DNA of 50,172 bases, from NCBI RefSeq assembly GCF_000003605.2, contig NW_003112467.1, forward strand, positions 214,965 through 265,136, given 5' to 3'. Below the pieces are notes generated by a model. It did no database searches. It saw only the letters and a list, made by a program, of their open reading frames with translations, and was not told the origin of the DNA. Positions 3,075-44,367 of the stretch are shown piece by piece. Source of the stretch: Saccoglossus kowalevskii. Taxonomy: Eukaryota > Hemichordata > Enteropneusta > Harrimaniidae. Within the stretch, counting starts at the first letter, position 1, and each line of letters starts with the position of its first letter. Position numbers and translations under genes: made by a program.

Positions 3075-3227
3075 TTGTCTGATGACTGGCAAATTGACTA
3101 TGAATCCTACAGCTGGAAGAAACTTGACCCAGATGCAGAAGAAACTAAAACATTAGTCAAAGAATATTTTGCTTGGGAAGGAGACTTTGAAGGCAAGAAA
3201 GTCAACCAGGGCAAAGTGTTCAAATAA
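3075..3227 (+). CDS. Elongation factor 1-gamma (eEF1B-gamma), terminal coding exon
   Basis: The exon encodes the last 50 residues of eEF1-gamma, beginning [20 protein letters not shown] and ending [13 protein letters not shown] before TAA. The W-x-(V/I)-DYESY-x-W-(R/K)-KLDP pattern, the ETxTLV(R/K)EYF(A/S)WEG block and the terminal NQGK(V/I)FK are the signature of the conserved C-terminal domain of eEF1G in animals. eEF1G is the glutathione-transferase-fold scaffold subunit of the eEF1B complex, which reloads eEF1A with GTP during translation elongation in the cytoplasm. The exon starts in phase 0 after a polypyrimidine tract and tttcag. Only this exon is in the window; upstream exons lie beyond position 1. 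The residue pattern is intact, so this is the functional gene copy and not a processed pseudogene, which would lack the intron boundary. It lies head-to-tail with the AHNAK/periaxin-like gene downstream. Confidence 0.95.
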
Positions 3228-3569
3228 AGACGTATTTCATCTGTATTTCAGGCTTAACTACATCCATTATGCAGTCTTTTATTTTATTTTACAACTCTTT
3301 AACAGACATTAGAAGCAAATATCTAATATCTGTGTAATTAAATTTATTGTCATCCCTCCTTCAAACAAAATCAAATATGTAATCAAACTGTTCTACATAA
3401 ATCTGGGATTTGCCTCTCACAGGCTGGATGAAAATTCACTTGTGCATGGTGAACTTCCTACTAGCAGATAATTTGCATGTAGGTGACTGCCGTGATAGAG
3501 AACGTTACACATGTTTGTTGTTGATCAAGCCACTGCTTTGTACGTGCATGGTACATTGCTAACAATAAA
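3228..3569 (+). promoter_or_regulatory. eEF1G 3' UTR with candidate polyadenylation signals
   Basis: Downstream of the eEF1G stop codon are ATTAAA at 3337-3342 and a canonical AATAAA at 3564-3569. Either could direct 3' end formation, and which one is used cannot be decided from the sequence. Confidence 0.45.
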
Positions 3570-4370: not shown

Positions 4371-4376
4371 CTTGTT

Positions 4377-6480: not shown

Positions 6481-6494
6481 TTACATTATGCGTG

Positions 6495-10843: not shown

Positions 10844-10874
<31 letters not shown>

Positions 10875-10875: not shown

Positions 10876-11284
10876 TTAATTATGATTGTAATGTAAATAT
10901 TCTGTGGTACACGGAAATAGTTTCTTCAAATTAGTCGAGCCTATGCCTCCTAATAGATACAAATAAGAATGTGATCTGTGGCCAACTCACTGGTACTAAA
11001 ACTGCAACGTCACACAAATATGCAGATAACGAGATAACAAATAGCAAGATCTAAGCTGGAATCCAAGCACTCACTTGTTGTACGAATAAAAATGGCGCAT
11101 TGTCAACAGAGGCGAAGCCGAGTTTCACATTGGTAATATTATCACTGAAATGCAGAGCATTTCGAATTGAGCCCCACTTTCATACAACTATCCAACATAC
11201 TATCAATACAATTACATGGAATAAACAAGTAATGAACTCGCACCCATCATTATATATTCTTACGATGTAACATTTCTTCAGATA

Positions 11285-13340
11285 AGACTAGGCGAATGGC
11301 ATTGTAATTTGGGAGACAACCATTCCTTCAAGTTGGATATGACTTGGTCAATGTCATTATAACTTTGTATACAGCAATTTCTTGAATATGACTTGGTCAA
11401 TGTCATTATAATTTTGATTACAACCATTCCCCAGATACGACTAGGCCAATGTCATTGTAACTTGGGATACAACCATTCCTCAGATACGACTAGGCCAATG
11501 TCACTGTAACTTGGGATACAACCATTCCTCAGATACGACTAGGCCAATGTCACTGTAACTTGGGATACAACCATTCCCCAGATAAGACTAGGCCAATGTC
11601 ATTGTAACTTGGGATACAACCATTTCACAGATAAGACTAAGCCGATGTCACTATAACTTGGGATACAACCATTTCTCAGATACGACTAGGCCAATATCCT
11701 TGTAACTTCGGATACAACCATTCCTCAGACAAGACAAGACCAATGTCACAGTAACTTGGGATACAACCATTCCTCAGATACGACTAGGCCAATGTCACTG
11801 CAACTTGGGTTACAACCATTCCTCAGATACGACTAGGCCAATGTCATAGTACCTTGGGGTACAACCATTCCTCAGATACGACTAGGCCAATGTCACTGCA
11901 ACTTGGGTTACAACCATTCCTCAGATACGACTAGGCCAATGTCATAGTAACTTGGGGTACAACCATTCCTCAGATACGACTAGGCCAATGTCATAGTAAC
12001 TTGGGGTACAACCATTCCTCAGATACGACTAGGCCAATGTTACTGTAAGTCGGGTTACGACCATTCCTCAGATAAGACTAGGCCAATGTCATTGTAACTT
12101 GGGATACAACCATTCCTCAGATACGACTAGGTTAATGTCCTTGTAACTTGGGATACAGCCATTTCTCAGATACGACTAGGCCAATGTCATAGTAACTTGG
12201 GGTACAACCATTCCTCAGATACGACTAGGCCAATGTTACTGTAACTCGGGATACGACCATTCCTCAGATAAGACTAGGCCAATGTCATTGTAACTTGGGA
12301 TACAACCATTCCTCAGATACGACTAGGTTAATGTCCTTGTAACTTGGGATACAACCATTTCTCAGATACGACTAGGCCAATGTCATTGTAACTTGGGATA
12401 CAACCATTCCTCAGATACGACTAGGTCAATATCCTTGTAACTTGGGATACAACCATTCCTCAGATACGACTAGGCCAATGTCACTGTAACTTGGGAAACA
12501 ACCATTCCTCGGATAAGACCAGGCAAATGTCACTGTAACTTGAGATACATCCATTCCTCAGATACGACTAGGCCAATGTCATTGTAACTTGGGATACAAC
12601 CATTCCTCAGATAAGACTAGGCCAATGTCATTATAACTTGGGAAACAACCATTCCTCGGATAAGACCAGGCAAATGTCACTGTAACTTGAGATACAAGCA
12701 TTCCTCAGATACGACTAGGCCAATGTCATTGTAACTTGGGATACAACCATTCCTCAGACACGACTAGGCCAATGTCACTGTAATTTGGGATACAACCATT
12801 CCTCAGATAAGACTAGGCCAATATCCTTGTAACTTCGGATACAGCCATTCCTCGGATAGAGCTAGGCCAATTTCACTGTAACTTGGGATACAACCATTCC
12901 TCGGATACGACTAGGCCAATGTCATTGTGACTTCGGATACAGCCATTCCTCAGATAAGACTAGGCCAATGTCACTGCAACTTGGGTTACAACCATTCCTT
13001 AGATACGACTAGGCCAATGTCATTGTGACTTCGGATACAGCCATTCCTCAGATAAGACTAGGCCAATGTCATTGTAACTTGGGATACAACCATTCTCCAG
13101 GTAAGACTAGGCCAATGTCACTGCAACTTGGGTTACAACCATTCCTCAGATACGACTAGGCCAATGTCATTGTGACTTCGGATACAGCCATTCCTCAGAT
13201 AAGACTAGGCCAATGTCACAGTAACTTGGGATACAACCATTTTCCAGGTAAGACTAGGCCAATGTCATTGTAATTTGGAATATAGCAATTCCTCAGATAC
13301 GATTTGGCCAATGTCATTGTAATTTGAGTTGCAACCATTT
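11285..13340. repeat. 49-bp minisatellite, about 42 copies
   Basis: The unit is 'cagatacgactaggccaatgtcattgtaacttgggatacaaccattcct'; spacing was checked between 11481 and 11530 as 49 bp. Copies at both edges (11285-11440 and 13240-13340) are clearly more diverged than those in the middle, as expected when unequal exchange homogenises the centre. Variants such as 'tcactgcaacttgggtt' and 'gtgacttcggatacag' recur in blocks, which suggests higher-order duplication. Confidence 0.95.
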
Positions 13341-14600: not shown

Positions 14601-15584
14601 AGCGATATTTCTACAATTTGAAATTATTACTAATATTTGTATTACTAGTATCTTGTACAGTCATATTGGAATCCCAATACTGAAACCTATTCCACGGGCA
14701 GTATACTCATTAAAATGTAGGGACGAAATGTACAACGCGATAATAGTAGTAATACAAACATAATCTGCTGCTAATTCGAGTTGATTTCATCGACAACGTA
14801 ATCCTAATAAATACAACAATAGTTCGGTCTTAACTTATTGAAACAACCACATATGCGGGATACAAGCCATCATATCATGGGAGGTATCGTTTAGAGTGTT
14901 GATAAAATGTCCGCTATAATATAATCTGAGAATGGTCATTACACAATATTATTAGAACACGACATCCGAGAATAGATGTTAGTAGAATATAATTCAGAGA
15001 ATAGTCACTATAACACAATATCTGAAAGATGTTTAAGGTGATTCAATTCGTTTAGGCTATCATGTTTATATATATACAAAGATAACACATAAATTCTGTT
15101 TCCCATTTTTATAGAGCACTTGTGAGGGGCTGGGCGATATTTTCAAAGCACTGAGTATACTTAATCTTCATGTTAATCTAACACTCCCTCGTTCTCTCCA
15201 ACTACGATAATAACCTAAGCAACACTAGATAAAGATAAGACTCAATGAGTATGTATACGTGTTCCCTTCTATGTGAATAACCAGATTTGACCCATGATTT
15301 GCACTGTGTCAGCCATTCTCGTGTATAACACTACACACACAAATTGTATTTAGTCTTATTCTCATACGCGTACATTTTCAATAATATTAAATAAGTTTAT
15401 AATATATATAAATAATATTTAATAAATTCTGATAATAATAATAAAATGATCGCATCCTTAGAAATATTTTACAATGGTCGACAGCAATAAAATGTTTGTG
15501 ATAAAATACAATATGTACACCAAAATACATATGGTATGTGCACCACACACCTGGGTATTGTATCGTAACAACCCGACACTATGG
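14601..15584. other. AT-rich non-coding DNA
   Basis: No gene is supported. Loose repeats of 'gagaatagtcactataacacaatat' type occur at about 14920-15030. 15380-15450 is a very AT-rich tract with ataata runs. Confidence 0.35.
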
Positions 15585-15589
15585 GTGTT

Positions 15590-17795
15590 GTACGCAACCC
15601 TGACACTACTATAGGTGATTGACGCAACCCTGACACTACTATAGGTGATTGTCACAACTCTGACACTACTATAGGTGATTGACACAACTCTGACACTACT
15701 ATAGGTGATTGTCACAACTCTGACACTACTATAGGTGATTGACACAACTCTGACACTACTATAGGTGATTGACACAACTCTGACACTACTATAGGTGATT
15801 GACACAACTCTGACACTACTATAGGTGATTGACACAACTCTGACACTACTATAGGTGATTGACGCAACTCTGACACTACTATTGGTGGTTTACGCAACTC
15901 TGACACTACTATTGGTGATTGACACAACCCTGACACTACTATAGGTGATTGACACAACCCTGACACTACGATGGGTAATGTTCGCAACCCTGAAACTACT
16001 ATAGGTTTTGTACACAACCATGCCATTACTACGGACATTGTACGCAACATTGACACTACTATTGATGTTTTTGATCCAAATAAAATTTGTGTTTTAAATA
16101 GAAAAAGAAACATGACACGACTACGGGCATTGTACGCAACCCTGACACTACGATGGGTATTGTACGCAACCCCGGCACTACGATGGGTATTGTACGCAAC
16201 CCTGACACTACGATGTGAATTGTACGCAACCCGGACACTACGATGGGTATTTTACTAAACCCTGACACTACGATGGGTATTGTACGCAACCCTGACACTA
16301 CGATGGTATTGTACGCAACCCCGACACTACGATGGTATTGTACGCAACCCTGACACTACTATGGGCATTGTACGCAACCCTGACACTACGATGGGTATTG
16401 TGTGCAACCCTGACACTACGATGGGTGTTGTGTGCAACCCTGACACTACGATGGGTATTGTGTGCAACCCTGACACTACGATGTGAATTGTACGCAACCC
16501 GGACACTACGATGGGTATTTTACTCAACCCTGACACCACGATGGGTATTGTACGCAACCCTGACACTACGATGGTATTGTACGCAACCCTGACACTACGA
16601 TGGGTATTTTACTCAACCCTGACACTACGATGGGTATTGTACGCAACCCTGACACTACGATGGTATTGTACGCAACCCCGACACTACGAGGGTATTGTAC
16701 GCAACCCCNNNNNNNNNNNNNNNNNNNNNNNNNNNNNNNNNNNNNNNNNNNNNNNNNNNNNNNNNNNNNNNNNNNNNNNNNNNNNNNNNNNNNNNNNNNN
16801 NNNNNNNNNNNNNNNNNNNNNNNNNNNNNNNNNNNNNNNNNNNNNNNNNNNNNNNNNNNNNNNNNNNNNNNNNNNNNNNNNNNNNNNNNNNNNNNNNNNN
16901 NNNNNNNNNNNNNNNNNNNNNNNNNNNNNNNNNNNNNNNNNNNNNNNNNNNNNNNNNNNNNNNNNNNNNNNNNNNNNNNNNNNNNNNNNNNNNNNNNNNN
17001 NNNNNNNNNNNNNNNNNNNNNNNNNNNNNNNNNNNNNNNNNNNNNNNNNNNNNNNNNNNNNNNNNNNNNNNNNNNNNNNNNNNNNNNNNNNNNNNNNNNN
17101 NNNNNNNNNNNNNNNNNNNNNNNNNNNNNNNNNNNNNNNNNNNNNNNNNNNNNNNNNNNNNNNNNNNNNNNNNNNNNNNNNNNNNNNNNNNNNNNNNNNN
17201 NNNNNNNNNNNNNNNNNNNNNNNNNNNNNNNNNNNNNNNNNNNNNNNNNNNNNNNNNNNNNNNNNNNNNNNNNNNNNNNNNNNNNNNNNNNNNNNNNNNN
17301 NNNNNNNNNNNNNNNNNNNNNNNNNNNNTATGGGTATTGTACGCAACCCTGACACTACGATGGGTATTGTACGCAACCCTGACACTACGATGGGTATTGT
17401 GTGCAACCCTGACACTACGATGGGTATTGTGTGCAACCCTGACACCACTATGGGTGTTGTGCGCAATCCTGACACCACTATGGGTATTGTGCGCAACCCT
17501 GACACCACTATGGGTATTGTGCGCAACCCTGACACCACTATGGGTATTGTACGCAACCCTGACACCACTATGGGTATTGTACGCAACCCTGACACTACGA
17601 TGGTATTGTACGCAACCCTGACACTACTATGGGCATTGTACGCAACCCTGACACTACGATGGGTATTGTGCGCAACCCTGACACCACTATGGGTAATGTA
17701 CGCAACCCTGACACCACTATGGGTATTGTGCGCAACCCTGACACCACTATGGGTATTGTGCGCAACCCTGACACCACTATGAGTATTGTACTCAA
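15590..17795. repeat. 30-bp minisatellite in two subfamilies, containing an assembly gap
   Basis: Subfamily 1 (15590-15990) has unit 'tgacactactataggtgattgacacaactc'. Subfamily 2 (16115-17795) has unit 'tgacactacgatgggtattgtacgcaaccc'. Both are exactly 30 bp apart from scattered indels. A non-repeat spacer with 'ttttgatccaaataaaatttgtgt' (16070-16110) separates them. Because 30 is a multiple of 3 and the unit has no stop in several frames, it yields decapeptide-repeat reading frames on both strands; these are artefacts. The array is interrupted by Ns at 16709-17328, so its true length is unknown. Confidence 0.95.
16709..17328. other. Assembly gap (620 N) inside the 30-bp array
   Basis: A run of N flanked on both sides by identical 30-bp repeat units. 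The gap most likely contains more of the same array, and its stated size may be only an estimate. Confidence 0.98.
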
Positions 17796-19484: not shown

Positions 19485-20635
19485 GTCGTTGATTTGTAAT
19501 AATACACTATTTTGTACTCGTACATTGGTATTAATACGCTCTTTTGTACTCGTACATTAGTAATATTACAATATTTTGTACTCGTACATTAGTATTAATA
19601 CGCTATTTTGTACTCTTCGATTAGTAATAATACGCTATTTTGTACTCTTATATTAGTATTAATACGCTATTTTGTACTCGTACATTAGTAATAATACGCT
19701 ATTTTGTACTCGTACGTTAGTAATAATACGCTATTTTGTACTCGTACATTAGTATTAATACGCTATTTTGTACTCTTCGATTAGTAATAATACGTTATTT
19801 TGTACTCGTACATTAGTAATAATACGCTATTTTGTACTCGTACATTAGTATTAATACGCTATTTTGTACTCGTCGATTAGTAATGATACACTATTTTGTA
19901 CTCGTACATTAGTATTAATACGTTAATTTGTACTCGTCGATTAATAATAATACGATATTTTGTACTCGTACATTGGTATTAATACACTAATTTGTACTCG
20001 TCGATTAGTAATGATACGTTATTTTGTACTCGTACATTATTATTAATACGCTATTTTATACTCGTACATTAGTAATAATACGATATTTTGTTCTTGTACA
20101 TTAGTATTAATACACTATTTTGTACTCGTACATTAGTATTAATACGCTATTTTGTACTCGTCGATTAGTAATAATACGATATTTTGTACTCGTACATTGG
20201 TATTAATACACTAATTTGTATTCGTACATTAGTAATAATACGATATTTTGTACTCGTCGATTAGTAATAATACGATATTTTGTACTCGTACATTAGTAAT
20301 AATTTTGTATTCGTACATTGGTATTAATACGCTATTTTGTACTCGTACATTGGTATTAATACGCTATTTTGTACTCGTACATTAGTAATAATTTTGTATT
20401 CGTACATTGGTATTAATACGCTATTTTGTACTCGTACATTGGTATTAATACGCTATTTTGTACTCGTACATTAGTATTAATACGCTATTTTGTATTCGTA
20501 CATTAGTAATAATTTTGTATTCGTACATTGGTATTAATACGCTATTTTGTACTCGTACATTGGTATTAATACGCTATTTTGTACTCGTACATTGGTATTA
20601 ATACGCTATTTTGTACTCGTACATTGGTATTAATA
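19485..20635. repeat. 32-bp minisatellite, about 35 copies
   Basis: The unit is 'attagtaataatacgctattttgtactcgtac'; spacing of 32 bp was checked between 19684 and 19716. Two alternating variants, 'taataata' and 'tattaata', and a 'gtcgattag' variant recur in order, so multi-unit blocks have been duplicated. Several 3' copies lack the 'cgctat' segment ('taataattttgtattcg'). Confidence 0.95.
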
Positions 20636-27344: not shown

Positions 27345-28590
27345 TATAGAACTATGCTTAGTTCACCTAGAGATGGTTGTTGTCTGTACTTGGTTCACTC
27401 AGAATTAGGTTCTTTCTGAACTTGGCTCCCTCAGACGTAGATATTGTCTTTACTTGAATCACTCAGAGTTTGGTCTTTTCTGAACTTGGTTCCCTCAGAC
27501 GTAGATACTGTCTGTACTTGGTTCACTCAGAGTTCGGTCTTTTCCGAACTTGGCTCCCTCAGAGGTAGATGTTGTCTGTACTTGAATCACTCAGAGTTTG
27601 GCCTTTTTCGAACTTGGCTCCCTCAGAGATAGATATTGTCTTTACTTGAATCACTCAGAGTTTGGTCTTTTCTGAACTTGGCTCCCTCAGACGTAGATAT
27701 TGTCTGTACTTGGTTATTTTAGAATTTGGTCTTTTCCAAACTTGGCTCCCTCAGAGGTAGATGTTGTCTGTACTTGATTCACTCAGAGTTTGGTCTTTTT
27801 TGAACTAGGCTCTCTCATAGGTAGATGTTGTCTGTACTTGGTTCACTCAGAATTAAGTCCTTTCCGAGGTTGGCTCCCCAGACGTAGATGCTGTCTGTAG
27901 TTGAATCACTCAGAGTTAGGTCCTTTCTGAACTTGGCTCCCTCAGACGTAGATATTGTCTGTACTTGGTTCACTCAGAGTTAGGTTCTTTCTGAACTTGG
28001 CTCCCTCAGACGTAGATACTGTCTGTACTTGGTTCACTCAGAGTTCGGTCAGAGGTAGATGTTGTCTGTACTTGGTTCACTCAGCGTTAGGTCTTTTCCG
28101 AACTTGGCTCCCTCAGAGGTAGATGTTGTCTGTACTTGGTTTATTCAGAATTAGGTTCTTTCCGAACTTGGCTCCCTCAGACGTGGATATGGTCTGCACT
28201 TGGTTCACTCAGAGTTAGTTAATTTCTGAACTTGGCTCCCTCAGACGTAGATATTGTCTGTACTTGGTTAACCCAGAGTTAGGTACTTTCTGAATTTGGC
28301 TCCCTCAGAGGTAGAAGGTGTCTACTTGGTTCACTCAGAGTTAGATCTTTTCCGAACTTGGCTCCCTAAGAGGTAGATATTGTCTGTACTTGAATCACTC
28401 AGAGTTCGGTCCTTTCTGAACTTGGCTCCCTCAGAGGTAGATGTTGTCTGTACTTGGTTCACTCAGAGTTAGGTCTTTTCTGAACTTGGTTCCCTCAGAG
28501 GTAGATGTTGTCTGTACTTGAATCACTCTGAGTTTGGTCTTTTCCGAACTTGGCTCCCTCAGAGGTAGATATTGTCTGTACTTGAATCAC
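27345..28590. repeat. 64-bp minisatellite filling the intron
   Basis: The unit is 'ggctccctcagacgtagatattgtctgtacttggttcactcagagttaggtcttttctgaactt'; 64-bp spacing was checked at 27424 and 27488. About 19 copies are present. The first diverged copy begins within about 20-40 bp of the splice donor at 27325. Confidence 0.95.
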
Positions 28591-29160
28591 TCACATATGA
28601 TACACATATATTCTGTATCTGGATATTCCATCTGATACACATATATTATGTATCTGGATATTCCATCTGATACACATATGTTTTGTATCTGGATATTCCA
28701 TCTGATACACATATATTATGTATCTGGATATTCCATCTGATACACATATGTTCTGTATCTGGATATTCCATCTGATACACATATATTATGTATCTGGATA
28801 TTCAAACTAATACACATATGTTCTGTATCTGGATATTCCATCTGATACACATATATTATGTGTCTGGATATTCCAACTGATACACATATGTTCTGTATCT
28901 GGATATTCCATCTGATACACATATGTTCTGTATCTGGATATTCCATCTGATACACATATATTATGTATCTGGATATTCCATCTGATACACATATATTATG
29001 TATCTGGATATTCCATCTGATACACATATGTTGTGTATCTGGATATTCCATCTGATACACATATATTATGTATCTGAATATTCCAACTGATACACATATA
29101 GTATGTATCTGGATATTTCAACTGAGACACTTATGCTCTGTGTCTGGATATTCCAACTGA
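28591..29160. repeat. 35-bp minisatellite directly following the 64-bp array
   Basis: The unit is 'tgatacacatatattatgtatctggatattccatc'; 35-bp spacing was checked at 28621 and 28656. About 16 copies are present. The array ends about 60 bp before the acceptor of the PDZ exon at 29223. Confidence 0.95.
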
Positions 29161-29222
29161 CACACATACACTTAATATACATACATTTAATAAACAATAC
29201 TCTTGTTTGGTTGTATTGACAG

Positions 29223-29445
29223 GATGAACCAGATGGTATGAATCCAGAAATAGCACGTCCTACTTTCAATCCAAATTATGATGTTGGGCCTATTAAGAAA
29301 TGTAAGACCCTAAAAGTCCTTTTAAATGAAAATCTAACAGAGACGTCACTTGGATTGAATATAGCTGGTAGTCAGCAGCATGGTATATTTATCAACAAAG
29401 TAACATCAGGTGGAGCTGCTGAACAGTCAGGAGTTGTTGAAAAAG
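29223..29445 (+). CDS. AHNAK/periaxin-like gene: first part of the PDZ domain
   Basis: The acceptor is ttgacag|gat (phase 0) and the donor gaaaaag|gttagt (phase 1). After a linker (DEPDGMNPEIARPTFNPNYD) the PDZ fold starts at about 29304 with KTLKVLLNENLTETSLGLNI. SLGLNI is the carboxylate-binding GLGF-type loop. AG..QHGIFINKVTSGGAAEQ is strand B to helix A, and SGVVEK runs into G-D-K-I in the next exon. The loop-strand pattern GLNIAG...GIF and the following GD(K/Q)xxxxxVxFD are those of the periaxin/AHNAK PDZ, which in those proteins binds partners and can dimerise by strand exchange. The intron splits the PDZ between the Lys and the Gly-Asp. Confidence 0.85.
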
Positions 29446-29990
29446 GTTAGTAACCATTGTTTAAAATGACTACTCGTACATCGCATATGTTTAATTTTCC
29501 CGGCTGGTAAAAATTCAAACTTTCATGTCAGGTGTCTCCTTTAAGTACAATTTTAGACATTCAAATTTACTTCAGTTGAATGCCACCCTCATCCAGTGAC
29601 TGATTAAAAGAGTGTGAAACAGATAACACAATAATTTGAAGTGATAATAATGATAAATCAAATGTCTTAGTGATGACCAAATATACCCTGAAATCATTGA
29701 AACCATTGTTGTCATTGTCTACGCCTGCTAAACAAAGTGACTTAGTGTGGTTACTGGGAATGAAAACGAAAGTATATAATAATAATCTTTAATGCATGGC
29801 TGGTCAATTTCTGTTGAAAGTTACCCGCCTTGGCAGACTTTTAGTAACCTCATGTACCACTCACAAAGTGTTCATGTATGTAACACATGGCTGTAATTTA
29901 ATGAAATAGTAAATGGCAGGTCTGAATGAATACCAATAGGTACAGGATCATCGAATATTAACTCATTTCCTCATTATTCTTTATCACTAG
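29446..29990. other. Intron between the PDZ exons
   Basis: GTTAGT donor and TTATCACTAG acceptor, phase 1. The 545-bp interior holds no repeat or gene that I can see. Confidence 0.8.
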
Positions 29991-32900
29991 GTGACAAGAT
30001 TCGAAGTGTGACAGTACATTTTGACAAAATTGCTTACGAAGACGCCCTGACTATCTTAAGTTATGCTGCAAGATATAAAGTTGGAATGGAGTTAGAACGT
30101 GAATTTGGACAGGCAAAACTGTCATTAGAAGATCCAATGGTTGCTAAATCTCAGTTTCCACAAACACTTATGCTGCCAAAGGATATTCTCAGCTTCTCTC
30201 ATACCGAAGATGACTTTGATCTACAGAAACACAGCTCACTGCCCAATGTTGTTAGTGTGGGAGAGGATACAAATGAACAAAATCTTGAAAGGGGAAATTC
30301 TCTTCCCAGAGATTTTCAAACCTCAGAAAGCAAACATCAACGGGGAGATTCAATTGACAGTGGTGCTGTTTTGAGTGACAATGCCATATCCCCCAGTCCT
30401 CATGAACAAATAATTGATAAAAAGAATAACCAAATACCTCACGATGACTACACAATTGACGCTGATGATTCTATATTTGATTATGATGTACCAGACAGTG
30501 ATTATGATGTGAATCCTGGTCTACAAGAAGCACATACATCTGATGATGATGTCAGTCAAGCATCAGACGGACCTGATACTACATATGTCACACTATCTCA
30601 AGAGAATGAGCAAAGCTACATTGTCGCAGAACATATATCTTATGTTGATAACTCTGTCACCCATAAGAAAATCAGGACTACTTCTTCTTCTTCTTCTGAT
30701 TCCTCATTGTGTGATCATGAAGTAAAATTGATGGAAATAAACAATCATCATGGAAATGAGCTGCATGGTATTTCATCAATGCATTTGTCAGAAAAAATTG
30801 ATGTAATCGAAACACATGGTGATAATGTAATTCTAGCTGCCAGTGATGATGTGGATTTCGTGAGCGAAATTGACGATGCTCTTCAGGAAAAACAGATGTT
30901 TGAACTTCAACAAGCAGAACTTAAGGAAGAAGGTGATCCAGCTGTCATATCAATTAAACGAAAGGATAGTAGCAGCAGCAGTAGTAGTAGTAACAGTAGT
31001 AGCAGCAGTTTGGCGAGTGACAAAGTAAAAAATGATGTATCACAAACATTTGACACTCCATCAGCTGAGTTAACGAAAACAGCACAAATGATTCAAGTTG
31101 AGTCACAATCACCAATGATTGGTACTGTACACATTAACAACGATGACAACATGGGGAGTGACAAACGCGAAAATATTGTAATTGAAACATATGATGGAGA
31201 AAAAACGGAAGAAACTACATTATCCATCACCACAACAATCACAAGAAAATACAGCAGTGGAAGTAGTAGAAGTTCAGATCCAGCATATGTAGTAATGGGA
31301 GAAATAGACAACTTGGCCACTAATGAGATGATAGTCACCTCAGACCATGTACATAACACTTCACAAACCAATGAATGTACCAATGCAGGAGTGAATATTA
31401 TTGATGTAACTAGACATGAGTCTGAAAATGGAACAGTGAAAGAGATAGAAAAAAAATCACGAAGTAGTAGCACTGCAAGCAACAATTCAGATAATGATGA
31501 ATTTGTGTCTCGTGTCAACATTGAACTGGAAACAAGACATAGCAGGAGTTTCAGTAGTAGTAGTAGTAGCTCTACAAGTTGTGATGAAAATAGTCATGTT
31601 GCTGGTTCATATGATATCAATCCACTCCTGGATGACAACATACCTGATAAATGTGATCATTCAAGCATGGTGACCATATTGGCTGTCAGGAAAACACCAG
31701 AATTTGAAGAACCTGTTTCTGATGTCTTGACTGAAGATGCAGTTAAACAGAATGATAGTAGCTGTAGTACTGCAACTGCACGTTTCGATGATGTAGCTAC
31801 TGAAATGTATGTATCGACAGTTAATGTTGAAGAACCAGATGACAGTAAAGTTACCAATGAAACATCTCACACTATTCACACTAGTGTCAGCATCAATTCC
31901 GAAAATAGCAAATTGTTGACTCCAGCTCAATCAAACATTACAGTTAGTAATGCCGAGTTCACAGAACTGTCGATTAAATGTGATGTGGAACAACCTGATA
32001 TAAACACAAATGGATCTCACCATGATAGCATGAATGAAAGAAATGAATACACAGTTTCAGAAATATCGCACAATGTACCGATTGAGAGGAGTCAGATTAG
32101 TGAAGCGCCTGTTGAAGGGCCTGAGTTGCGTATTGAAACTGTTAGCAGTACGAGTAGAAGGGAACAAATATCTGAAAAAGATATTACAGATGCAGCAGAC
32201 ACAAAAGCGGGGAAAAGGAAAAGTTTTAAATTATTTGGAAAGAAAAACAAGGAGTCAAAGCAGACAAAAGAAAACAAAGACCAATCAAAGGAGAAAACTG
32301 GGCCAAAGCATTTCTTTAAAAAGAAGCATAAAGAACATAATACTGTTAACTTGGCAGTAGTAGATGCGTCCCTGAAAGATGAAACAGAATTCAAAGATTC
32401 AGAAAACACATATCCAAAGAAATCAAAGGCAAAAAAGAAAAGTGATCGAAAGAAAACACCAGTCACACTATCACATGAAGATGATTTAGGTATTGCAGCT
32501 GATGAAACTGATGCTCAACCTGTTATTGCTGATGGTGACATACAGTCAACAGAACAGTTAAATACACTTATCCCAGTATATTCAGCAGAAGAAGAAAGGC
32601 ATGACACATTTGAAGCTAGAAAATATGCCTCACCAGAAGCTGCAATAAAAAAATCTACATTTAATGAAGAAAGTGAAAAAGAACAAGAAAGAAAGGAAGA
32701 CACAGAACATCTTGAAATAAAGCAAGAGCTGCATCTAGTGACAACAAGTGAAAAGAATACAGAACAAACTTTATTGCCAATAATAGCTGATGTGAAACAT
32801 ATCAGCGACCTCAGCAGTAGTAGTAGCAGTAGCAGCAGCAGCAGTGATGAGAGTGATCAAAATGACAACTTTTCATTTGAAAACCAGTCTGCTGAGCTTC

Positions 32901-35900
32901 ATAATATTGAACAAACACCTGTGAAAGAAACTATAACTGCAGTGTATATTAATCCAGATGATACATCTTTCAATTTGGAACAACAATTAGTCAAATTACA
33001 AGGCGATGCCGACAAACAAGTTGTGGAAAAGGAGACATTAGGTGCTGACAATGTATCTTTCTCCTCTTCAAGTGAGACTGATAGTGATAGTCTTAATGCT
33101 CTAGCAGAGAGCAAAGACGAACTGGTGCCCAGAACCCCAATAAACGAATCTGTAGAGAAAACAGGGAAAACAGATTTTAATGGTTTAGATAATTTTTGGA
33201 ATGCAATTAATAAATTAGAAAGCAGTAGTACTAGCATTGAATCAGAAGATGTTGCAGACTCTCAGGTAGTACGCACAGACATTATTTCAGACAATTGTTC
33301 AGCAGAGAAACACAACATCACAGTGGACCTGAACCTTGAAACTAATGTCCCAACTCAATTGCAAACTTATGATACTAAATCTGAAATAATAAAAATTGAA
33401 AATTGCTCATCCTCCCCAAAAGAGGAAAATGAATGTTGTTATACAATTGAACATGAACATCAAAAAGAGCAAATAATATCCATTTCGATGCCAAAATATG
33501 TCATAAAAAAGGAAGTTTGTGATACAAAACATGTTATTGTTGATGATATAAAATCCTCTTTTTCTCCAGCAACAGAATTAGGCACGACAGAAGAAAAGGT
33601 GAAAGTAGAAATGGATGAGAAAGCAGATGCTAATTTGATAATGTCATCACAAGTAATACTCGGAGAAATCATAAGTACTAAACATATTACATGCTCAACA
33701 AACACTGAAACAAAAGAAACTCATCCTGGAAATGTAGCAATTGTCGAAGAGAAAATAGAAATCTTTGATTCGCCAAAGGATATGATGACCACAGAAAAAG
33801 TCACTCCAACTAGTGTGCTAGAGAATACAAATGATGACAATAGTACAGCTAATAATGAAGCATTGGGGTCATCAGCCATTCCGATTTCTACACAGATAGA
33901 TATCAGTGATGGCGAGAGTGAAACAAAAGAAAAAGAACATGTAAAAAAAAGCCAATTTAATCCTTTTCGAAGGAAAAAGAAGGATTACCAGATCAAACCT
34001 CCAACTGGTGGCACTAAGGATTCAGTAATAGCAGAACCAAATATTATTGTGGTAAAAGATCAAGACCCAAGCACTGATATAAAAATGATGGGTAAAAAGG
34101 TCAAGAAGGGACACAAGAAGAAGCTAAGTAGAGATATATCCAATGAACTAAACAAAAATGAGGAGGAATGCAACAAAGAACATGATGCAAATGGAAAGAA
34201 GGGCAAGAAAGGAAAAAAGGGACACGAGAAACAACACAGCAGGGATGTAGCATCTGAAGAGCTGAAATTAGAAGCTGTCAAAAAGGAAAGTTTCTTGAAA
34301 CAAAATGTGGATGAACAACCACAACTAAAGGCAAGTACAAACAGTGATATACCACCACAACATAAAGATGATGTCAAACACATGGAAGCTTTCTACATTG
34401 AAAGTGGAAAGAAAATAAAAAAAGAAAGAAAAGGACACAGGAAAAAGAAAAGCAGGGACATATCATCAGATGAAGTAAAAGAATATGATATCACTTTGAA
34501 TGTTGTACAACATGAAAAAGACGCAACACCAATGTACCAAGAGAGTAAAGAAGTAGAACAATCTGGGAAAAAAGAAAAAGGTCTGTTCAAATTCTTCAAA
34601 ATAGAACATTCCAAGTGTGGAAAGTATGAGAAAAGTGACGATGTTGAAAAGATAAATAAGGATTACCATGTAAAGTCAGTGGAAGGCCATGATGGATTGG
34701 TAGTTGAAACTGATATATCATGTGATCAGGTAAACAATGAAACTGTCCATGATGGTTTGGCAACAGCAAACAAGCATAAGTTAGGTACCCAACAAGATAC
34801 CATGGACGATTCTGTGTTACCTATACCAATGCCAGAAAATATGTCACTCCAAATATGTAATACCAATGACAATGTGTATGCCATTGATGAACGAATACAG
34901 ATTCAAATGCAAGAAAAAGATGAGCCATATCAAGACAAGTCGAATAGTAGTGTAAGAATAGAGAAAGATGTTGAACATCTAAACAATATGCAGATAGACT
35001 CATGTGACCGTAATCCAAGTGAAACACTGGAGGCTAGAAACATTGAAAAGCATGCAACAAATGTAGGAATGTTTGGTATTTTGAAGAAAGATACTGAAGA
35101 ATCTGAATTGCAAACAGAAATGATGGTCGACGAAAACCACCATAATGACCATGTTGTTTCCATAAGTTTAGATGAGAAGCCAGGTTTTCTGCCAGACAAA
35201 ACTGTACATAAGTCTACAGAAATACATGTTGCAGATAGTATTGATCAAGGCGAATTACCATTTAATGCAAGTGCAAATGAGGAGGGCGTACTAGATACAA
35301 AAAACAACATGAAGTATCCGGATAGCAAACTCAGTAACAGTAAATCACTAACAGATGCAGAATGTAATGAAGATGATGACCGAGATAAGACAGTGGATGT
35401 TGAATTGGATATTAGTTCAAAAGTGGATGGAAATGAAGAAGTTATTGAAAATGAATCACAACTTATATCACCAACTTTGATAAAGGATGATACAAAAGCC
35501 AATCAAGATATTACTACTAAAGTTCATCAACCAAATGAGAAAAAAAACGTGGTATATGGCGGATTACAGCCCAATACTGGTTCAACAGAACTAAATTATG
35601 AAGTTTCCGATATCCCATGTAAAGGAGAGTACAACATACAAAAACAGTCCAAATTACATGTAGAGTATGTTGCTGATAATGGAGATGAAGAAGAAATAGA
35701 AAAACAACAACATGCTTCATCTGATAATGATAAAGATAAAACAGGCAGTGTAATGAAGGATAAGTGGGATGTTGTTCGTCGATTTTTCAAAAGAAAGCGC
35801 AAAGACAAAAAAGAACACAAAATTAAGAGCTCAGATTCAACAAGTACTGAGCACACAGACCATGATGAAGAAGATTTTGATGATTCGCACACATCTTTAC

Positions 35901-38900
35901 ATACAGACACATCAAGTCTGTCAATTGAAGAAGATCATAAAGATATTATAATCAGAAGAAAGGAAGGAAGGAAAGGTCTTAAAAGTTTCTTTTCAAAACG
36001 AAAATCAAAAGAGTTCACACTAGGTGAAGTAACAATTGATGGTGATCAAGATGCTGAAGAGTTCAAAGAAGTAGATGTAACCCTTCAAATAGAAACAAAA
36101 CCTCCAGAAGTGGAAAGCCAATATGCAAATGATGCATTAAATCCTGATACCAGTGACATGACTGACATTCCACTATCATCATCAACAAACAAAAACACTC
36201 CTTTACCTGAAGGGAAAAGTGATGGGACAGATGTTTTTGATGAAAGGGAAGTTGAAATGACAATAACAGCTATAACACCAATTTCTGAAGTGGATATGAA
36301 AACTGAAGTGCTGTCAGAAGATTATAATCACAGTATGAGTAAGGACAAGGAAATAAAGAAAGAAAGTAGGACAGGTTTGAAAAGTTTCTTTGCAAAACGC
36401 AAGTCAAAAGAATTCCCACTGGGGGAAGTAACAAGTGATGTTAATCGAGAGGAAGTCTTCAAAGAAGTGGATGTAAATCCTGAAATAGAAACAGAACCTT
36501 CATTAGAAGTTAGAGACCAGAGTGAATGTTCGTCCATAAATCTTGAAGTCAGTGATCTGACTGAATTTCAACCATCTTCAACAAATAATAAAGCTGATTT
36601 ACCTGGAGAAAACATTGAAGTGAAACTAATTACAAAAGAAACAGCTGTACCAAAAATGTGTGAAGCTCAAATACAAACTGGTGTTACTTTAGATCTTAAT
36701 GACAGTAAAACTAAAAACAAGAAAGAGAAAAAGAAAGAGAAAAAGAAGGGTTTTAAAAATCCATTTGGTAAACAGAAGTCATATGATTTTAAACTTGACC
36801 ATGAAGACCAAGTAGATGTAATCGTTGAGACTATAAGACCTTCTGGATTGATAGAACACAGTATTCACACTTCAGATAATCTTGATGATACTGATCATGC
36901 ATTAACCCAACAATCTTCAAGTCAAGAAGCAAGCTTCACTGTGGAAAATGTCCATGAAATGGATGTGTCTGAAGATGTATTATCTGAGGATAAAGTTGTA
37001 AAAGATATAATAACAGATGAAGCTGTTACAGAAATATGTGAAGCCCAGGCAGATTTAGTGCCAGAACATGATGTAAAAGAAAAGAAAAAAGAACTTAGGA
37101 AAGGAAAGAAGGGTCTTAAAAGTCTGTTCGCAAAACGGAAGTCAAAAGACTTTACACTGGATGCAGAGAAAATTCATGTGGACCATGATAATGACTTCAA
37201 GATTATTGAAACGATACCAAACTTAGAAATGAATCAAAGTGAGAATTCTTCTCTGAATCACGAGATCGTCGGTGAAACTGATGTACATTTAGAAACGACG
37301 ATAAAAGATGAATCTACAGAAAAAACACTTTCACCAAAAACTCATGATGATAATAGACTAGCTGAAGTAATTCCAGAAAATCCAAAAGACAATAAGACAA
37401 AGAAAAAAGTATCTAAGAAGGATGGCAGGAAAAGTCTCCATAATATCTTTGCAAAACGAAAGTCAAAAGATCTGGATAAGTGTTTGAAGGAAGTGGGTGT
37501 AAACTCTGAAATGGAAAGGATATCTTCTTTAGAAGCAGCAGATCAAAGTGAAACTGGTCCTTTAAATCATAATGTCACCATTCAAGTTGATGTTCCACTA
37601 CATTCATCAAGTAATATAATGGATGTCACTGACGAGAAGGAGACTGCCTCAGATGTTTTGGAAGGTAAACAATCTAATGACCAAAAGCTTGAACCAGAAA
37701 TGTTGAATGTTTCAAAACAACTAGAAGTGTCTCCAGATGAATCATTACATCAAAATGAAGAAGTTACAATGCTAGATCCAACACAGCAAGGCAATTATTT
37801 TTTAGTTGAAGCAGGTGGCACTGGCAACATTCTCCAAGGGGATGTGTCACCTGTAGTATCAGTAATATCCCCTGACATTGCAGTTGACAACAGTTCAAAA
37901 GAAAACATTACATCAGACATAACTAAGCTAAATAAGAATAGTCAAGATGGGACAGACAACAAAGATGATGAAGCAAGCACTTCTGAAAGTATTGACTCAA
38001 ATGTTCCAAAGTTTGTAGATGTAACCAGTATAGTTAAGTTTAACAGTTACGTTCATGCAACTGATATTGAAGAAGGTGGCACTGCCCATGAATGTAGCAA
38101 AGCAGACACTGATGAGTCATCACAAATTGGGAAAATGACAGTTAAAAGCAGAATGAACACAGAAGAAACGTGTGTGCAAGTTATTAGAACAGAAACTGAT
38201 GATGTAGAGGACTCCATTAAAAAGATAAGCCTATATGTACCTATATTGTGTCACACAGAACACAATGAAGGATCTAATAGTCTTTTGTTATTAGAAAGGA
38301 AATCTGAACAGGAACACTCAGCTCCAAAACAAGCGGATGATTTAACACCATCTACCATACAGCTTGAACAAATGACTTTGGATAATACTGATGCTGAAAC
38401 TGTTGGACAATTCACAACTGTTGATGATGAGTTTGTTATTAGCAATGAATTTCATGAAAGTATTTATAACAATCCAAGCACTGGTAGTCTTCTCATCTCA
38501 AATATGCCAGAGTTACTAGTGACAACTGAAAGGGATGGACTGTCAGGCACCTTAGAATCAAATGAAAAGAGTGTAGCTGCTGAACAGTCAGACAAATTAC
38601 AATCAAGTGGATGGAATGTAGCTGCTGAACAGTCAGACAAATTACAATCAAGTGAAGGGAGTGTAGCTGTTGTACTGTCAGACACAATAGAATCATGTGA
38701 AGAGAGTGTAGCCACTAAACTGTCTGACCCAATAGAATCAAGTGGAGATGGTTTACCTGCTGAACAGTCAGACAAATTAAAATCAAGTGAGGAAAATGTA
38801 CTTGTTGTACTGTCCAACACCTTAGAATCAATTGCAGAAAGTGTAGCTGTTGTACTTTCGGACACCTTAGAATCAAGTGAAGAGAGTGTAGCTGCTGAAC

Positions 38901-41900
38901 TGCTCGACACCTTAGAATCAAGTGGAGACAGTGCAGCTGCTGAACAGACAGACAAATTAGAACCAAGTGGAAGGAATTTAACTGTTGGATTCTCTGACAC
39001 CATAGAATCAATGGAAGAGGCTGTAGATGTTGAACAGTCAGACGAATTAGAATCAAGTGGAGGGAGTGTAGCTGTTGTACTGTCAGACACCATAGAATCA
39101 AGTGGAGACAGTGTGGCTGCTGGACTGTTTGACACCTTAGAATCAAGTGAAGGGAGTGTAGCTGTTCTACTGCCAGACACCATTGAATCATGTGGAGATA
39201 GTGTAGCTGCTGAACTGACTGACCTCTTAGAATCAAGTGGAGGATGTATATCTGTTGGATTGACAGGCACCTTAGAATCAAGTGGAGGGAGTGTAACTGC
39301 TGAACTGCCTGACAATTTAGAATCAAGTGGCAGTAATGTAGCTGCTGAACTAGTCGACACCTTAGAATCAAGTGGAGATGGTGTATCTGCTGAGCAGTCG
39401 AGCAAATTAGAATCAGGTGAAGGGAATGTACCTGTTGTATTGTTCAACACCTCAGAATCAAGAGTGGGTTTAACTTTTGGAGTGCCAGATACCATAGAAT
39501 CAAACGAAGAGAATGTAGCTGCCAGACAGTCAAACACTTTGAAATTAAGAGGAAAANNNNNNNNNNNNNNNNNNNNNNNNNNNNNNNNNNNNNNNNNNNN
39601 NNNNNNNNNNNNNNNNNNNNNNNNNNNNNNNNNNNNNNNNNNNNNNNNNNNNNNNNNNNNNNNNNNNNNNNNNNNNNNNNNNNNNNNNNNNNNNNNNNNN
39701 NNNNNNNNNNNNNNNNNNNNNNNNNNNNNNNNNNNNNNNNNNNNNNNNNNNNNNNNNNNNNNNNNNNNNNNNNNNNNNNNNNNNNNNNNNNNNNAAAGTG
39801 TTCTGAGATGAATCCTATGGTTGGCTCATCATCACATGACATAACAATAAAGGATGAAGATATCAATCGGGAAATACAAGTCAATGCAGATGTCACAACT
39901 GAACCATCAACAACATCAAATAATGGTGGGCTGAATAAAGTACAGTTGAATACAGACGGTGATGATAGGGAAGACACAATGCAAATGGAGTTAGAATTAA
40001 CACACTATTCTGAATTATCAATGGAAAACACAAAGCAAATGTATCCATCTTCATCTGAAGAAGCAGCAACAGAGTATCTTGATAATGCTAGTCAAATATC
40101 TACACTAGTGGCTACTGCAGATGCAAAAGTCCAAATTGCAGTGATAGAGACACAGAATATCGAAGCCAGTAGCATGATTGAATACGCAGATGATATAGAT
40201 GGTATACAATATATTGTTGATGACAAGAAAGTAGAACACAATGCAGTGGTAGAAGTTCTAAAAACAGACGATTCTGAAGCAGATTTGCCTCAAATAGGAA
40301 ATATATATCACATAGATATGCACGAGTCCTTACAAGAACTTAATTTTCTCCCTGATTCAGCATCACCAATTGCATCATCTTCATCTTCGTCAATATCATC
40401 TGATTCAACTCTTATTGCAATAGAAAGGGGAACTGTTGGCAGAACAGGTGATTTTCAAGATCTGGAATTTGATGATAATCAGCCACCACCGGTGCCAACT
40501 TGCTCGCCTCCTGAATCAGACAGTGAAGAAATTGATATGGAGCCCACAACACGGCCTGAAAATCCGAATGATATTTGTGAAAATGAGAATGTACAGAATG
40601 ACTATGGGTCGCTTAATACTGCATTCGAAACTCAGATCAAATCAGAAACAGAAATCATTTCACCAGTACCTCCTCCACTGCATTTTCAAGATGAGTTTCA
40701 AGAACAGCAACACAAACTTGAAAGTGGGTCCTCTGAAGAAGATGATGCTCAACTTGACATTGGAACAAATGAGACCAAAATGCCTGTTGAAACAACACAA
40801 GAGGATATTACCCGGTCATCAGAGATTATTAAAACTGAAATTGAGTATCAACGAATGACAACTGTGATGGAGTTCAGTGTAAATGACAAATCAGTAAATG
40901 CAGAATGGAATCCAACTACAGAAGCTCAGCAGGAAATCCATTCAGTCATTGGACAACCATGTTTACTCCAGGTAACAATCCCACAATCAGATGGTAGGTG
41001 TGAGACGTCAGTAGAACAAACCCAAGTAGCAAGTGTGAGCATGATGACCGAAAAGAATGTATATGAAATTCAGGATTTCAAAGAAAATATAACATTACCA
41101 ACTGTAGAAATAGAAAATGATGTTCCGTCTACCCATGAAGAGCATATTTCATCAAATGTGACAGAAGGAGATGTAGTTCACCATGGATATACTGTACAGT
41201 CACTGACATTAGAACATACAGCAGTTGAATCAACAGTGGTAGAATATATTGAATATAACCAAAACAACAATGCTAGACATACAATTGTTTCTGGTCACAA
41301 AGGCAGCTATGATATCACTCCAGTTGAAGAAAATACTGATGATGCACTCTCAACTTCATCCTCCACTGAGAAAAGTGAATATTCAAAAAAGAAAGACAAG
41401 GACTGGAAAGGATTTAAGCTGTTTAAAAAGAAGAAACCTGAAACACTTAGTAAATCTAAGAAGCAAGAAGAAAAAGAAGAAACAAACATTCATGATGGGG
41501 CTACTGTCATGGGACAAGAAACTGACATTGCATTTACTGATGACAATGTTGTAGTGCAACATGACTGTGGAGTTGAGGATGGAGAATTTATAACTGATGT
41601 CTCAGTTGATGGCGATGAGAACCAAAACAAAGAAAATGACAAGTCAGCTACACAAACGAGTAAAGATCAACAGATAGATTATGACATTCAGTGTACAGAA
41701 GAACTGCTAAGTGTAGCTAAAACTGGAATTGACACTAAACAGTCCAAAAAGAAGGGTGGAACACTTAGTAAACTGTTCAAACGAAAGTCCCATACACGTG
41801 ATGGGTTTGAAGATGGTGAGGAAAAGGACAAAGGAAAGAAAAAAGAATTACAAGATGAGAAAAAGAAGAAAAAACTAAAAACTGAGAAAAAGGGAAAGAA

Positions 41901-44367
41901 AAATGAAGTGCCCATAAGTGATTATTTGTTTTCTCTTCAGCCATTTGATGAGAAATCAATTGAAATGACACATACAATGACTGCCGAAAAGCTTACAGAA
42001 GAGTCACCTGTTACACCTCACACCAAAAATATATCGCCACGTTTGAGACCAAGTACTAAAAAGAAAAGAGCTCCTTTGCCACCTGCAGCAGTTACAAAAA
42101 AACCTACAGCTGCCGTTATGTACAAAGAAAAAGCAGATCAACAGACACAGCCTTCAACACAAGCAACTGGAATACCTATTGGTATCACAGAAAATGACTC
42201 GGTGACAAAATGCCTGACATTGGATTCTTCTGCTAGTAAAGAGGAAGAAGAAAAGAAAACCCATGATGTGTCAACAATGAAAACACGGAAAAGAGCGCCA
42301 CCACCACCACCACCGCCAGCACTATCATCATCACCGTCAACTATTTCAGATGAAGAAAGCACAGTTATTGCTCCAGTGGAAATAAAAAATGAGGAAATGG
42401 ACAATAATCACATACAAGAACTAGAGCTGTCAGGTAGTAGTGATAACTACAATACAAATTGTATGCAGATTGAAAATGAAGACACACATGATGGTAATGC
42501 ATGCGATAGTTCTCAATTGTTTGATGCATTTGCCATGGACATTTCCACCATATCAAAAGTAGTACATGAAATGCCCCTTCCAGAAGGCATGCCACCACCT
42601 AAGCCAAAACGTTCATCATTAGACCTAGTCAACTACAATCCAGGAGATTTCAAAAAATCTGATCCATTTTTTGCATCACCAATTACTTCACAAGAGCTAT
42701 TAACTTCACCAAATGCAACCAACATGGAAGGTGATGTTACAGCAGTCAGCATTGCCAATCAACCTGAAGAATCAGGTCAAATTCAAATGGAAGAAGTGTT
42801 GGAAACTGTAGCAGCAGTTACAGTGAACTACAGTACTGATGATCAACAAAATAATACAGGTATTATTGAAGACACTGTGCAAGAACATCCCAATCAGCCC
42901 ACAGAAGCTAAAGAAAGAGGCCATACAGTGGACTTAGGGCATACAAATGAGACCGAAACAGACATGAATAAAAATATGGAGTGGGCTGATGTGAAAAGGA
43001 GACCGAGTGCTGCACAGAAGAGGAGACCAAGACCAGTGTCCATGGACGAGAGTTTTGCACCATCCCAAAAATACAGTGATGTTCGTATGAGGACAAAGAC
43101 AATATTGGCAGGTCTCAATAGTAACCACAAAGACAAAGAAGCTAACCGACGACATACCATTCATGGGGATAACTTAGTCAAGGATGATAATAAAAGAACA
43201 TTTATGTATGTTGACACTGAAACAACACACGGGAATGGTGGTAAACATTCTTTCAAACGTAATGAAAAAAAAAGTGATCCATCAATCTTTCAAGACTACG
43301 AAAATCTAATTGCATCTGCAAATAAAGCATTATCTCGTGTACATAGTGATCAAGAAATGAGCTGCACAGATTTGGATTCAGCGTGTAATAATAGATTAGA
43401 GACAGAGAAGCTGAGCGATGATAGAGCACAAGAAAATCTAAATCTTACTGAAGGACCTAACTCTTCGAATTCAGAAAATGGTAAGAAGATGTATAAGGCA
43501 CAAAGTGTGGTGTCTGTAGCTCCATTGAGTAGACATGATAAGGAGAGACACAGACCAGATGATGATTCAGTGGTTTCTCTTTCATTTGCAGCTGCACCTA
43601 TTGAAGTTGGGGAGAGAGCCACATCACCAATAACAAATGAACACCAATCAGTAGACATTCCCTCTGTAGTTGGCCTATCAAAGGTCAAGATACGATTACG
43701 AAGTCCAACTAGGCTGAAAAGACGAAAAAGGGAAGAAGAAACGAAAACCCAACCTGTGACAAGCAAAAAAGAAGAGTGGGTACCATCATGGAATACAAAA
43801 GAGCGTACTAAAGAACATGATGATGATGAAATGATCATGGTACATGCAAAGCCCATATTTATTGAGGAGTCACCTGAACTTCTGGAATCAACGCTGGCAA
43901 ATGCTGCAACTTCTGAAATTTCACAACCGCCACCTCTGCAAAACCCATCAGCAGAATATGACCAACCGCTCAAAGAACAATTTTGGAAAATGGCACCAAT
44001 TGAGCTCCAAGAGCTGATACAAGAGCAGCAAAGAAAAATGGAAGATTTGCAGGATCAGATGAATAGATTCCAGTCATCGTCATCAACAACAGAACAATAT
44101 CCAGTGCCTATGTCTATGTATGGTTCAACTGTTCATAGCAGTCAACCACAAATGTATCTCAACAGTGCAGGACATATAATACATTCTCCACAACCAGTAT
44201 ATACAATGCAACCAACAATTTCTGTACAAGGTGTAGTGCCAATACAAGTTATGACACCGCAAGTACCAATGCAGACTGTAGAAATGCATCCATCATTTAC
44301 TGCAATACACATGCAAGGACAAATTCCAGAAAGCTTGTCACGGCAAACAAATAGAAAAGATTTATAA
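29991..44367 (+). CDS. AHNAK/periaxin-like giant protein: rest of PDZ plus ~4,700-residue body (giant terminal exon)
   Basis: The acceptor TTATCACTAG|gtgac restores G-DKIRSVTVHFDKIAYEDALTIL; VxFDxxxYEDALxxL is the periaxin/AHNAK PDZ signature and the domain ends near MELERE (about 30100). Without a stop until the gap at 39557, and again from 39795 to TAA at 44365-44367, the exon encodes an acidic, Ser/Thr/Glu/Asp/Lys-rich, largely disordered protein. Visible features: poly-Ser runs (about 30967-31010 and 32810-32845); at least twelve basic-aromatic motifs of the type K-G-L-K-x-F-F-x-K-R-K-S-K; three KKGHxKKxSRD motifs (about 34090-34475); a 15-residue tandem repeat (38546-39556); two KRAP proline motifs (42061-42084, 42288-42321) and PLPEGMPPPKPKR (about 42571), all possible SH3 ligands; a short Gln/Glu coiled coil (about 43975-44070); and a Met/Gln/Pro/Val tail. 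One uninterrupted giant 3' exon is also the layout of vertebrate AHNAK and periaxin. By family analogy it is a submembrane or cytoskeletal scaffold. Confidence 0.85.
35975..37560 (+). repeat. Five long protein repeats (~107-133 aa) with a basic-aromatic core
   Basis: The cores start at 35975 (GLKSFFSKRKSKEF), 36374 (GLKSFFAKRKSKEF), 36749 (GFKNPFGKQKSYDF), 37112 (GLKSLFAKRKSKDF) and 37433 (SLHNIFAKRKSKDL), spaced 133, 125, 121 and 107 codons apart. Between them, acidic segments share weaker landmarks such as FKEVDV..EIET, DQSE...LN.E and VLSED. They are degenerate tandem duplications inside the exon. Confidence 0.75.
38546..39556 (+). repeat. 45-bp coding repeat (15 residues), about 22 copies
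   Basis: The consensus is SDTLESSGDSVAAEL in single-letter code. Units alternate between a VAAEQ/SDKL type and a VAVVL/SDTI type, hinting at higher-order units. Length is kept at 45 bp except for one irregular copy near 39455-39475, so the frame has been protected while the array expanded. The array runs into the assembly gap at 39557. Confidence 0.95.
39557..39794. other. Assembly gap (238 N) inside the giant exon
   Basis: The frame to the left has a codon boundary exactly at 39557. The frame to the right uses 39795 as the last base of a codon. A continuous exon therefore needs a gap length of 2 modulo 3, whereas 238 is 1 modulo 3. The stated gap size is thus probably wrong, and the apparent TGA at 39809-39811 in the left-hand frame is an artefact. 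A hidden intron is a less likely alternative. Confidence 0.9.

Follow-up and report, generated by a model that had tools for sequence, protein, structure and literature searches.

An AHNAK/periaxin-type PDZ gene with a giant exon downstream of eEF1G in a hemichordate: a probable single-copy pro-orthologue of a vertebrate scaffold family

Does the vertebrate family of AHNAK, AHNAK2 and periaxin (PRX) have a counterpart in an animal outside the vertebrates, and does that counterpart still lie beside the gene of elongation factor 1-gamma (eEF1G)? The question is raised by a stretch of 50,172 nucleotides from Saccoglossus kowalevskii (contig NW_003112467.1, positions 214,965 to 265,136, forward strand; hereafter the window, in which positions are given), where a gene made of a PDZ domain and a giant exon comes after the end of eEF1G on the same strand. 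Our results support the notion that this gene is very probably a single-copy pro-orthologue of vertebrate AHNAK, AHNAK2 and periaxin, present in a hemichordate and apparently keeping its ancestral place immediately behind eEF1G.

A split PDZ domain, a giant exon and the end of eEF1G

The PDZ domain is coded by two exons on the forward strand. The first one (29223-29445; 74 codons plus one base), recognised from its splice reading and from PDB and Pfam matches, begins 27 codons ahead of the PDZ core, carries the first half of the domain and ends in phase 1 at a GT donor. A phase-1 intron with GT...AG borders (29446-29990, forward strand) then splits the Gly codon of the GD motif of the PDZ, and joining 29445 to 29991, behind an AG acceptor, gives a single open frame across the domain, which matches the Pfam PDZ model at 2.4e-9. 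The giant exon (29991-44367, forward strand) opens with the second half of the PDZ and goes on to code a tail in which S, E, D, K and T abound and which is no shorter than 4.6 thousand residues; a stop at 44367 closes it. Both exons taken together hold 4,786 readable residues without any stop. The giant exon contains one run of 238 N beyond which the frame differs, a change that can be accounted for because a gap of unspecified length allows a frame shift. In neither frame did it match any Pfam family at E up to 1. The gene model was built from the sequence alone, and exons upstream of 29223 and a start codon were not found. Given such a model and the change of frame across the N run, the giant frame might be a separate long gene into which the PDZ frame merely runs; this is most improbable, since the reading frame entered through the PDZ acceptor (29991) meets no stop over the 9.5 kb up to the N run and an open frame of similar composition leads on to 44367.

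The upstream gene was identified through its terminal coding exon (3075-3227, forward strand), in which the acceptor and the stop could be read directly: a T-run and an acceptor AG at 3073-3074 stand before the exon, and it ends in the stop TAA. Its translation matched elongation factor 1-gamma of the PDB (1pbu) in a phmmer search at 3.7e-20 over 50 of 50 residues, and a tblastn search with a provisional human eEF1G sequence reached the same exon at 2.1e-19 with 68.5% identity. This was the one match to human eEF1G in the whole genome at E up to 0.01, and no second copy was seen in that genome-wide protein search. The Pfam model of eEF1G gave no match in the genome search, probably because introns split the gene. 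Upstream of the exon, a partial DDE_Tnp_1_7 (piggyBac) transposase is found at 837-1364 (forward strand; 6.9e-21), and it therefore probably sits in the last intron of eEF1G. The first-pass annotation of this DNA had proposed an eEF1G terminal exon followed by a same-strand gene with a PDZ and a giant exon, and the coordinates, the splice sites and the 1pbu and Pfam PDZ matches bear it out.

Family of the PDZ domain

The assignment of the PDZ to the periaxin/AHNAK family, made by sequence comparison, appears strong, not decisive. In a phmmer search of the PDB with the spliced domain (127 residues; best 60 of 196 matches), the AHNAK2 structure 4cn0 was the best single-domain match (8e-11), with a gapless alignment, and periaxin (4cmz) came at 4.3e-10 with a single gap near the start; other single-PDZ chains were found at 8.7e-7 or weaker, and two-PDZ chains at 2.8e-8 or weaker. 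Searches of the 572-Mb genome, in which all match counts are lower bounds, led back to the same locus. The AHNAK2 PDZ ranked the giant exon first (8.9e-5, the next match being at 0.25; at least 3 matches), and the PRX PDZ listed it as its sole match (at least 1 match). When the window PDZ was itself used as query, its own exons came out at 1.6e-25 and 4.1e-19 and the next match at 8.1e-4 (at least 8 matches), without a second PDZ of the periaxin/AHNAK type among them. The Pfam PDZ model gave at least 35 matches in the genome; the window PDZ is not one of them, probably because each half is too short alone. In the excerpts of published work on which we draw here and below, cited by PubMed Central (PMC) number, AHNAK2 is described as the sole sequence relative of PRX (PMC7072810).

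A PDZ on another contig (C3223), lying in an apparent frame of 21,655 residues, was considered as a second giant PDZ gene and rejected. The domain is PICK1-like by eye and stands directly behind an N run, and 1,199 of the 3,000 bases examined there are N; a second piece from the same locus contains none. Since the length of the frame equals the distance to the contig start, it most simply runs through N.

Trees and alignments point in the same direction as the searches. Our larger tree had 17 rows: the window PDZ, AHNAK2 and PRX with their PDB letters, a provisional AHNAK sequence, seven further PDZs from vertebrates (also provisional, and verified in part by the PDB search) and six PDZs of this genome. 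In this tree, the window PDZ formed a clade with AHNAK, AHNAK2 and PRX at 93/97. With six rows left out, namely the provisional AHNAK and, on account of their long branches, five more, the resulting 11-row tree joined the window PDZ with AHNAK2 and PRX at 90/94. In the 17-row alignment, one residue is missing at the V-N-G turn after the GD motif in all four family rows (the provisional AHNAK among them) and in none of the 13 others, a family feature that was derived in this analysis. Over 74 positions, the window PDZ shares 26 residues with AHNAK2 and 26 with PRX, and the provisional human AHNAK PDZ shares 21 and 24 with them, respectively; because its identity to AHNAK2 and PRX matches that of human AHNAK, the window PDZ falls within the spread of the vertebrate family. 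The first-pass annotation had called the domain periaxin/AHNAK-type, and this is upheld by the forward and reciprocal searches, by a tree that is good, not decisive, and by the one-residue deletion.

Several observations weigh against this assignment. By whole-chain E-value, DLG4 (2xkx; 5.3e-13) heads the best 60 of the 196 PDB matches, with a score that adds several weaker domains, the best single one being at 1.8e-4. The reciprocal match of PRX is weak (0.03), and the family clade is not starred in either tree. DLG4 PDZ3 has the highest identity to the window PDZ in the tree alignments (35% over 78 columns), no lower than that of AHNAK2 or PRX, and in the 11-row set a tree holding these two domains together was 12.9 log units worse and not rejected at 0.05 (approximately unbiased test, p-AU 0.077). 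The window PDZ might thus be an unrelated domain of DLG/ZO type that converged on the periaxin/AHNAK form and was joined to an independent giant disordered exon. We consider such a convergence improbable, as the periaxin/AHNAK family is favoured alike by the top-ranking single domain of the PDB, by the AHNAK2 and the PRX search of the genome, by the deletion common to the family and by the neighbouring gene. It is the weak PRX score and the unrejected DLG4 PDZ3 tree that hold down our confidence in a pro-orthologue kept beside eEF1G.

To the question of which of AHNAK, AHNAK2 and PRX is closest, the tree gives no answer. On its sequence, the gene is best described as an orthologue of the whole group, for which the term pro-orthologue fits better. 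Thus, where an orthologue of AHNAK had been proposed for this locus, membership of the AHNAK/AHNAK2/PRX family stands, but orthology to AHNAK alone does not.

The eEF1G neighbourhood and human 11q12.3

Human EEF1G and AHNAK are both on the reverse strand, with EEF1G upstream. In the window, the PDZ gene lies on the strand of eEF1G (forward), 26 kb downstream, and is the next gene found there, as AHNAK is in human. Consistent with the shared order claimed in the first-pass annotation, the two human genes stand side by side in an excerpted gene list of 11q12.3 (PMC6365579).

The interval between the eEF1G exon and the PDZ gene measures 25,995 bases, of which 7,395 are tandem repeat. No open reading frame (ORF) above chance length was found in it, the longest non-repeat one having 132 residues, when 50 base shuffles gave 120 on average and 173 at most; short exons would escape such a test. 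A Pfam scan of the 75 non-repeat ORFs of the interval (at least 58 residues, E up to 0.001) gave one borderline match, to DUF4446 (9.9e-4), roughly what chance can yield in 75 scans. Long minisatellite arrays with units of about 30-64 bp occur outside the coding exons of the window, at 11274-13339, 15581-16707, 17329-17795, 19492-20635, 27380-29168, 48108-48656 and 49384-50172, the last of them reaching the window end.

The surroundings were examined over about 100 kb on each side, with 96,295 of 250,171 bases being N. A Pfam scan at E up to 0.001 took in 400 of 408 non-repeat ORFs with 58 residues or more (the eight crossing piece ends were dropped, and the giant-exon region was left out). 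It returned bestrophin (7 ORFs), ANAPC1 (two families, 3 and 2 ORFs), DDE_Tnp_1_7 (2 ORFs, one of them that at 837-1364), one EF-hand, one ADP-dependent glucokinase and two weak DUF matches. The EF-hand belongs to an exon that is calcineurin B-like, calcineurin B by eye (L024:2206-2544, reverse strand; Pfam EF-hand 5.7e-15), and the glucokinase ORF was placed by Pfam at L032:3967-4647. The contig of the window bears a tandem pair of bestrophin genes (C641 112858-122822 and 158306-168314, both forward); at least 22 bestrophin matches were found genome-wide, the others being on four further contigs. Since human BEST1 is located at 11q12.3 (PMC9756692), this provides a suggestive link to the human region.

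It might be proposed that the PDZ belongs to the family and that its adjacency to eEF1G results from a recent or chance rearrangement, rather than from inheritance from an ancestor shared with vertebrates. The adjacency is known from one invertebrate genome, and several features of the region count against an inherited arrangement. The flanks consist largely of N, including the upstream flank adjoining eEF1G, so that eEF1G itself is seen by its terminal exon alone. The glycosidase family of GANAB, another neighbour named in the 11q12.3 list (PMC6365579), has at least 38 matches in the genome and none on the window's contig. The calcineurin B-like EF-hand, the ADP-dependent glucokinase and ANAPC1 of this contig are absent from the excerpted 11q12.3 list, as is BEST1 in spite of sharing the band (PMC6365579). 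Against a rearrangement, a given gene would by chance come to stand immediately behind eEF1G, and in its orientation, in about 1 of 50,000 cases if there are some 25,000 genes, as we assume, and the two bestrophin genes add a further link to 11q12.3. A recent or accidental adjacency is thus unlikely, and ancestral linkage of eEF1G and the PDZ gene is what we infer, with one genome on the invertebrate side. Taken together, the eEF1G-PDZ pair is kept, the bestrophin link is suggestive, and, for the families examined, this contig does not preserve the wider 11q12.3 block. Our search of the open-licence PubMed Central literature found no report of an invertebrate AHNAK or of EEF1G-AHNAK linkage, which is weak evidence of absence. 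As the host is a hemichordate-like deuterostome, it follows directly that the family originated no later than the common ancestor of the hemichordate lineage and vertebrates.

The mitochondrial contig of the assembly (C4830; 17,037 bases) was also surveyed, its genes being named by eye except cox1 and nad5. It carries atp6-cox3-nad3-nad4L-nad4-nad5-cytb in one direction, then nad6 reversed and a Phe tRNA, and further on Leu-nad2-Leu-nad1, with nad2 between two tRNA-Leu genes. The cox1 gene is opposite in strand to most other protein genes and lies beside tRNA-Gln and tRNA-Ala. Over 413 positions compared with a mammalian ND5 (PDB 5cod, which we take to be bovine), ATA stands opposite Ile in 9 of 19 places and Met in 3, and AAA opposite Lys in 4 of 7 and Asn in 1. 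A gene order like this is known from chordates and hemichordates, and the code suits neither chordates nor echinoderms. The mitochondrial contig thus points to a hemichordate, with good probability, and more surely to a deuterostome.

The tail, related proteins and a possible scaffold

From residue 150 on, the tail comprises 4,637 readable residues. It is net negative in 22 of 24 blocks of 200 residues, and 75% of its residues are disorder-promoting, by a crude composition measure. Against this acidic background, ten basic-aromatic clusters were counted, typically of the form GLKSFFAKRKSKEF, eight at 32312-37470 and two at about 41422-41800 (forward strand; coordinates converted by hand from protein positions). 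The pattern F-x(0-2)-[KR][KRQ][KR] occurs at 10 sites, against a mean of 0.5 and a maximum of 4 in 500 composition shuffles; since it was picked after the sequence had been seen, this figure overstates the surprise. Tandem Repeats Finder detected in the giant exon a tandem array with a unit of 45/90 bp, coding repeats of 15/30 residues (38539-39462, forward strand; 73-74% matches), and a blastp comparison of the tail with itself gave no matches. Two proline-rich stretches, KKKRAPLPP and KRAPPPPPPP, are present at 42058-42084 and 42289-42318 (forward strand). SH3 domains bind proline-rich stretches of this kind.

Among known proteins, PRX resembles the window gene in its PDZ type, in a PDZ split by one intron in the mouse, and in a long disorder-prone tail, which in the window is judged from composition only. 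The intron presumably lies at the same Gly codon in both genes. PRX is not known to adjoin EEF1G. In the mouse, exons 5 and 6 share the coding of the PRX PDZ, and the repeats and the C-terminal part come from a separate 3' exon 7 (PMC3482659). PRX thus has a further exon boundary between the PDZ and the 3' exon, whereas in the window the giant exon includes the second PDZ half and the open frame needs no second intron ahead of it, a difference that counts against the pro-orthologue. Human PRX is also unlike the window gene in its 1,461 residues and PEVK-rich region; its N-terminal PDZ forms an intertwined dimer and its tail is predicted to be disordered (PMC7072810). AHNAK2 shares the giant exon (about 17.6 kb) as well as the best single-domain PDB match, but differs by 24 central repeats of 165 residues and by its locus at 14q32 (PMC10682155). 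AHNAK (desmoyokin) has a giant exon, a PDZ and, by the 11q12.3 list, EEF1G as neighbour, but also central repeats of about 128 residues (PMC10682155) that are not seen in the window tail; a complex of its S100A10/annexin A2-binding peptide, which belongs to the C-terminal part, has been described (PMC7072810). In agreement with the earlier remark that the body shares no repeats with vertebrate AHNAK, the hydrophobic-P-K/E-hydrophobic pattern is not in excess in the tail (7 sites against 6.8 in 500 shuffles). This lack of excess, a further point on the opposing side, is why the gene is not filed as AHNAK proper. The bilaterian giant ankyrins, unrelated as proteins, offer a precedent for the ageing of a long exon, their very long exon having once been thought vertebrate-specific and then been given a bilaterian origin (PMC5135030).

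The periaxin PDZ homodimerises and is required for membrane appositions, and its long, mostly disordered tail links membrane complexes (PMC3482659, PMC6465933, PMC7072810). By homology with PRX and AHNAK2, in which dimers form by strand swapping, the PDZ-like domain of the window protein would most likely dimerise it, and each subunit would then bear a tail that exceeds 4,600 residues, is acidic for the most part and is putatively disordered from its composition. Each of the ten basic-aromatic clusters may offer a site of contact, probably to acidic lipids of the membrane or to partners in the cell cortex, so that the protein would form a multivalent scaffold, long and flexible, beneath the plasma membrane. 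We lean towards a broader scenario, held with less assurance than the pro-orthologue itself, in which the eEF1G-AHNAK/PRX pair was inherited and is at least of deuterostome age, and the gene keeps the condition that preceded the rise of AHNAK, AHNAK2 and periaxin through genome duplication in vertebrates. It would stand for a dimeric PDZ scaffold with basic-aromatic clusters as its repeated contact sites, which vertebrates later swapped for long proline-spaced repeats.

A single-copy invertebrate member in the same neighbourhood would provide an outgroup for the family and make its age testable genome by genome. Since the body of this protein is without a recognisable family signature, whole-protein searches may miss such members, and the neighbouring gene together with the PDZ offers a practical way to find more members. 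What is known of AHNAK/periaxin-type scaffolds comes mainly from the nerve sheaths, muscle and lens of vertebrates, and the gene described here would open the original role of the scaffold to study in an animal that lacks myelin. If the broader scenario holds, the membrane-organising job of this family would predate myelin, lens and heart.

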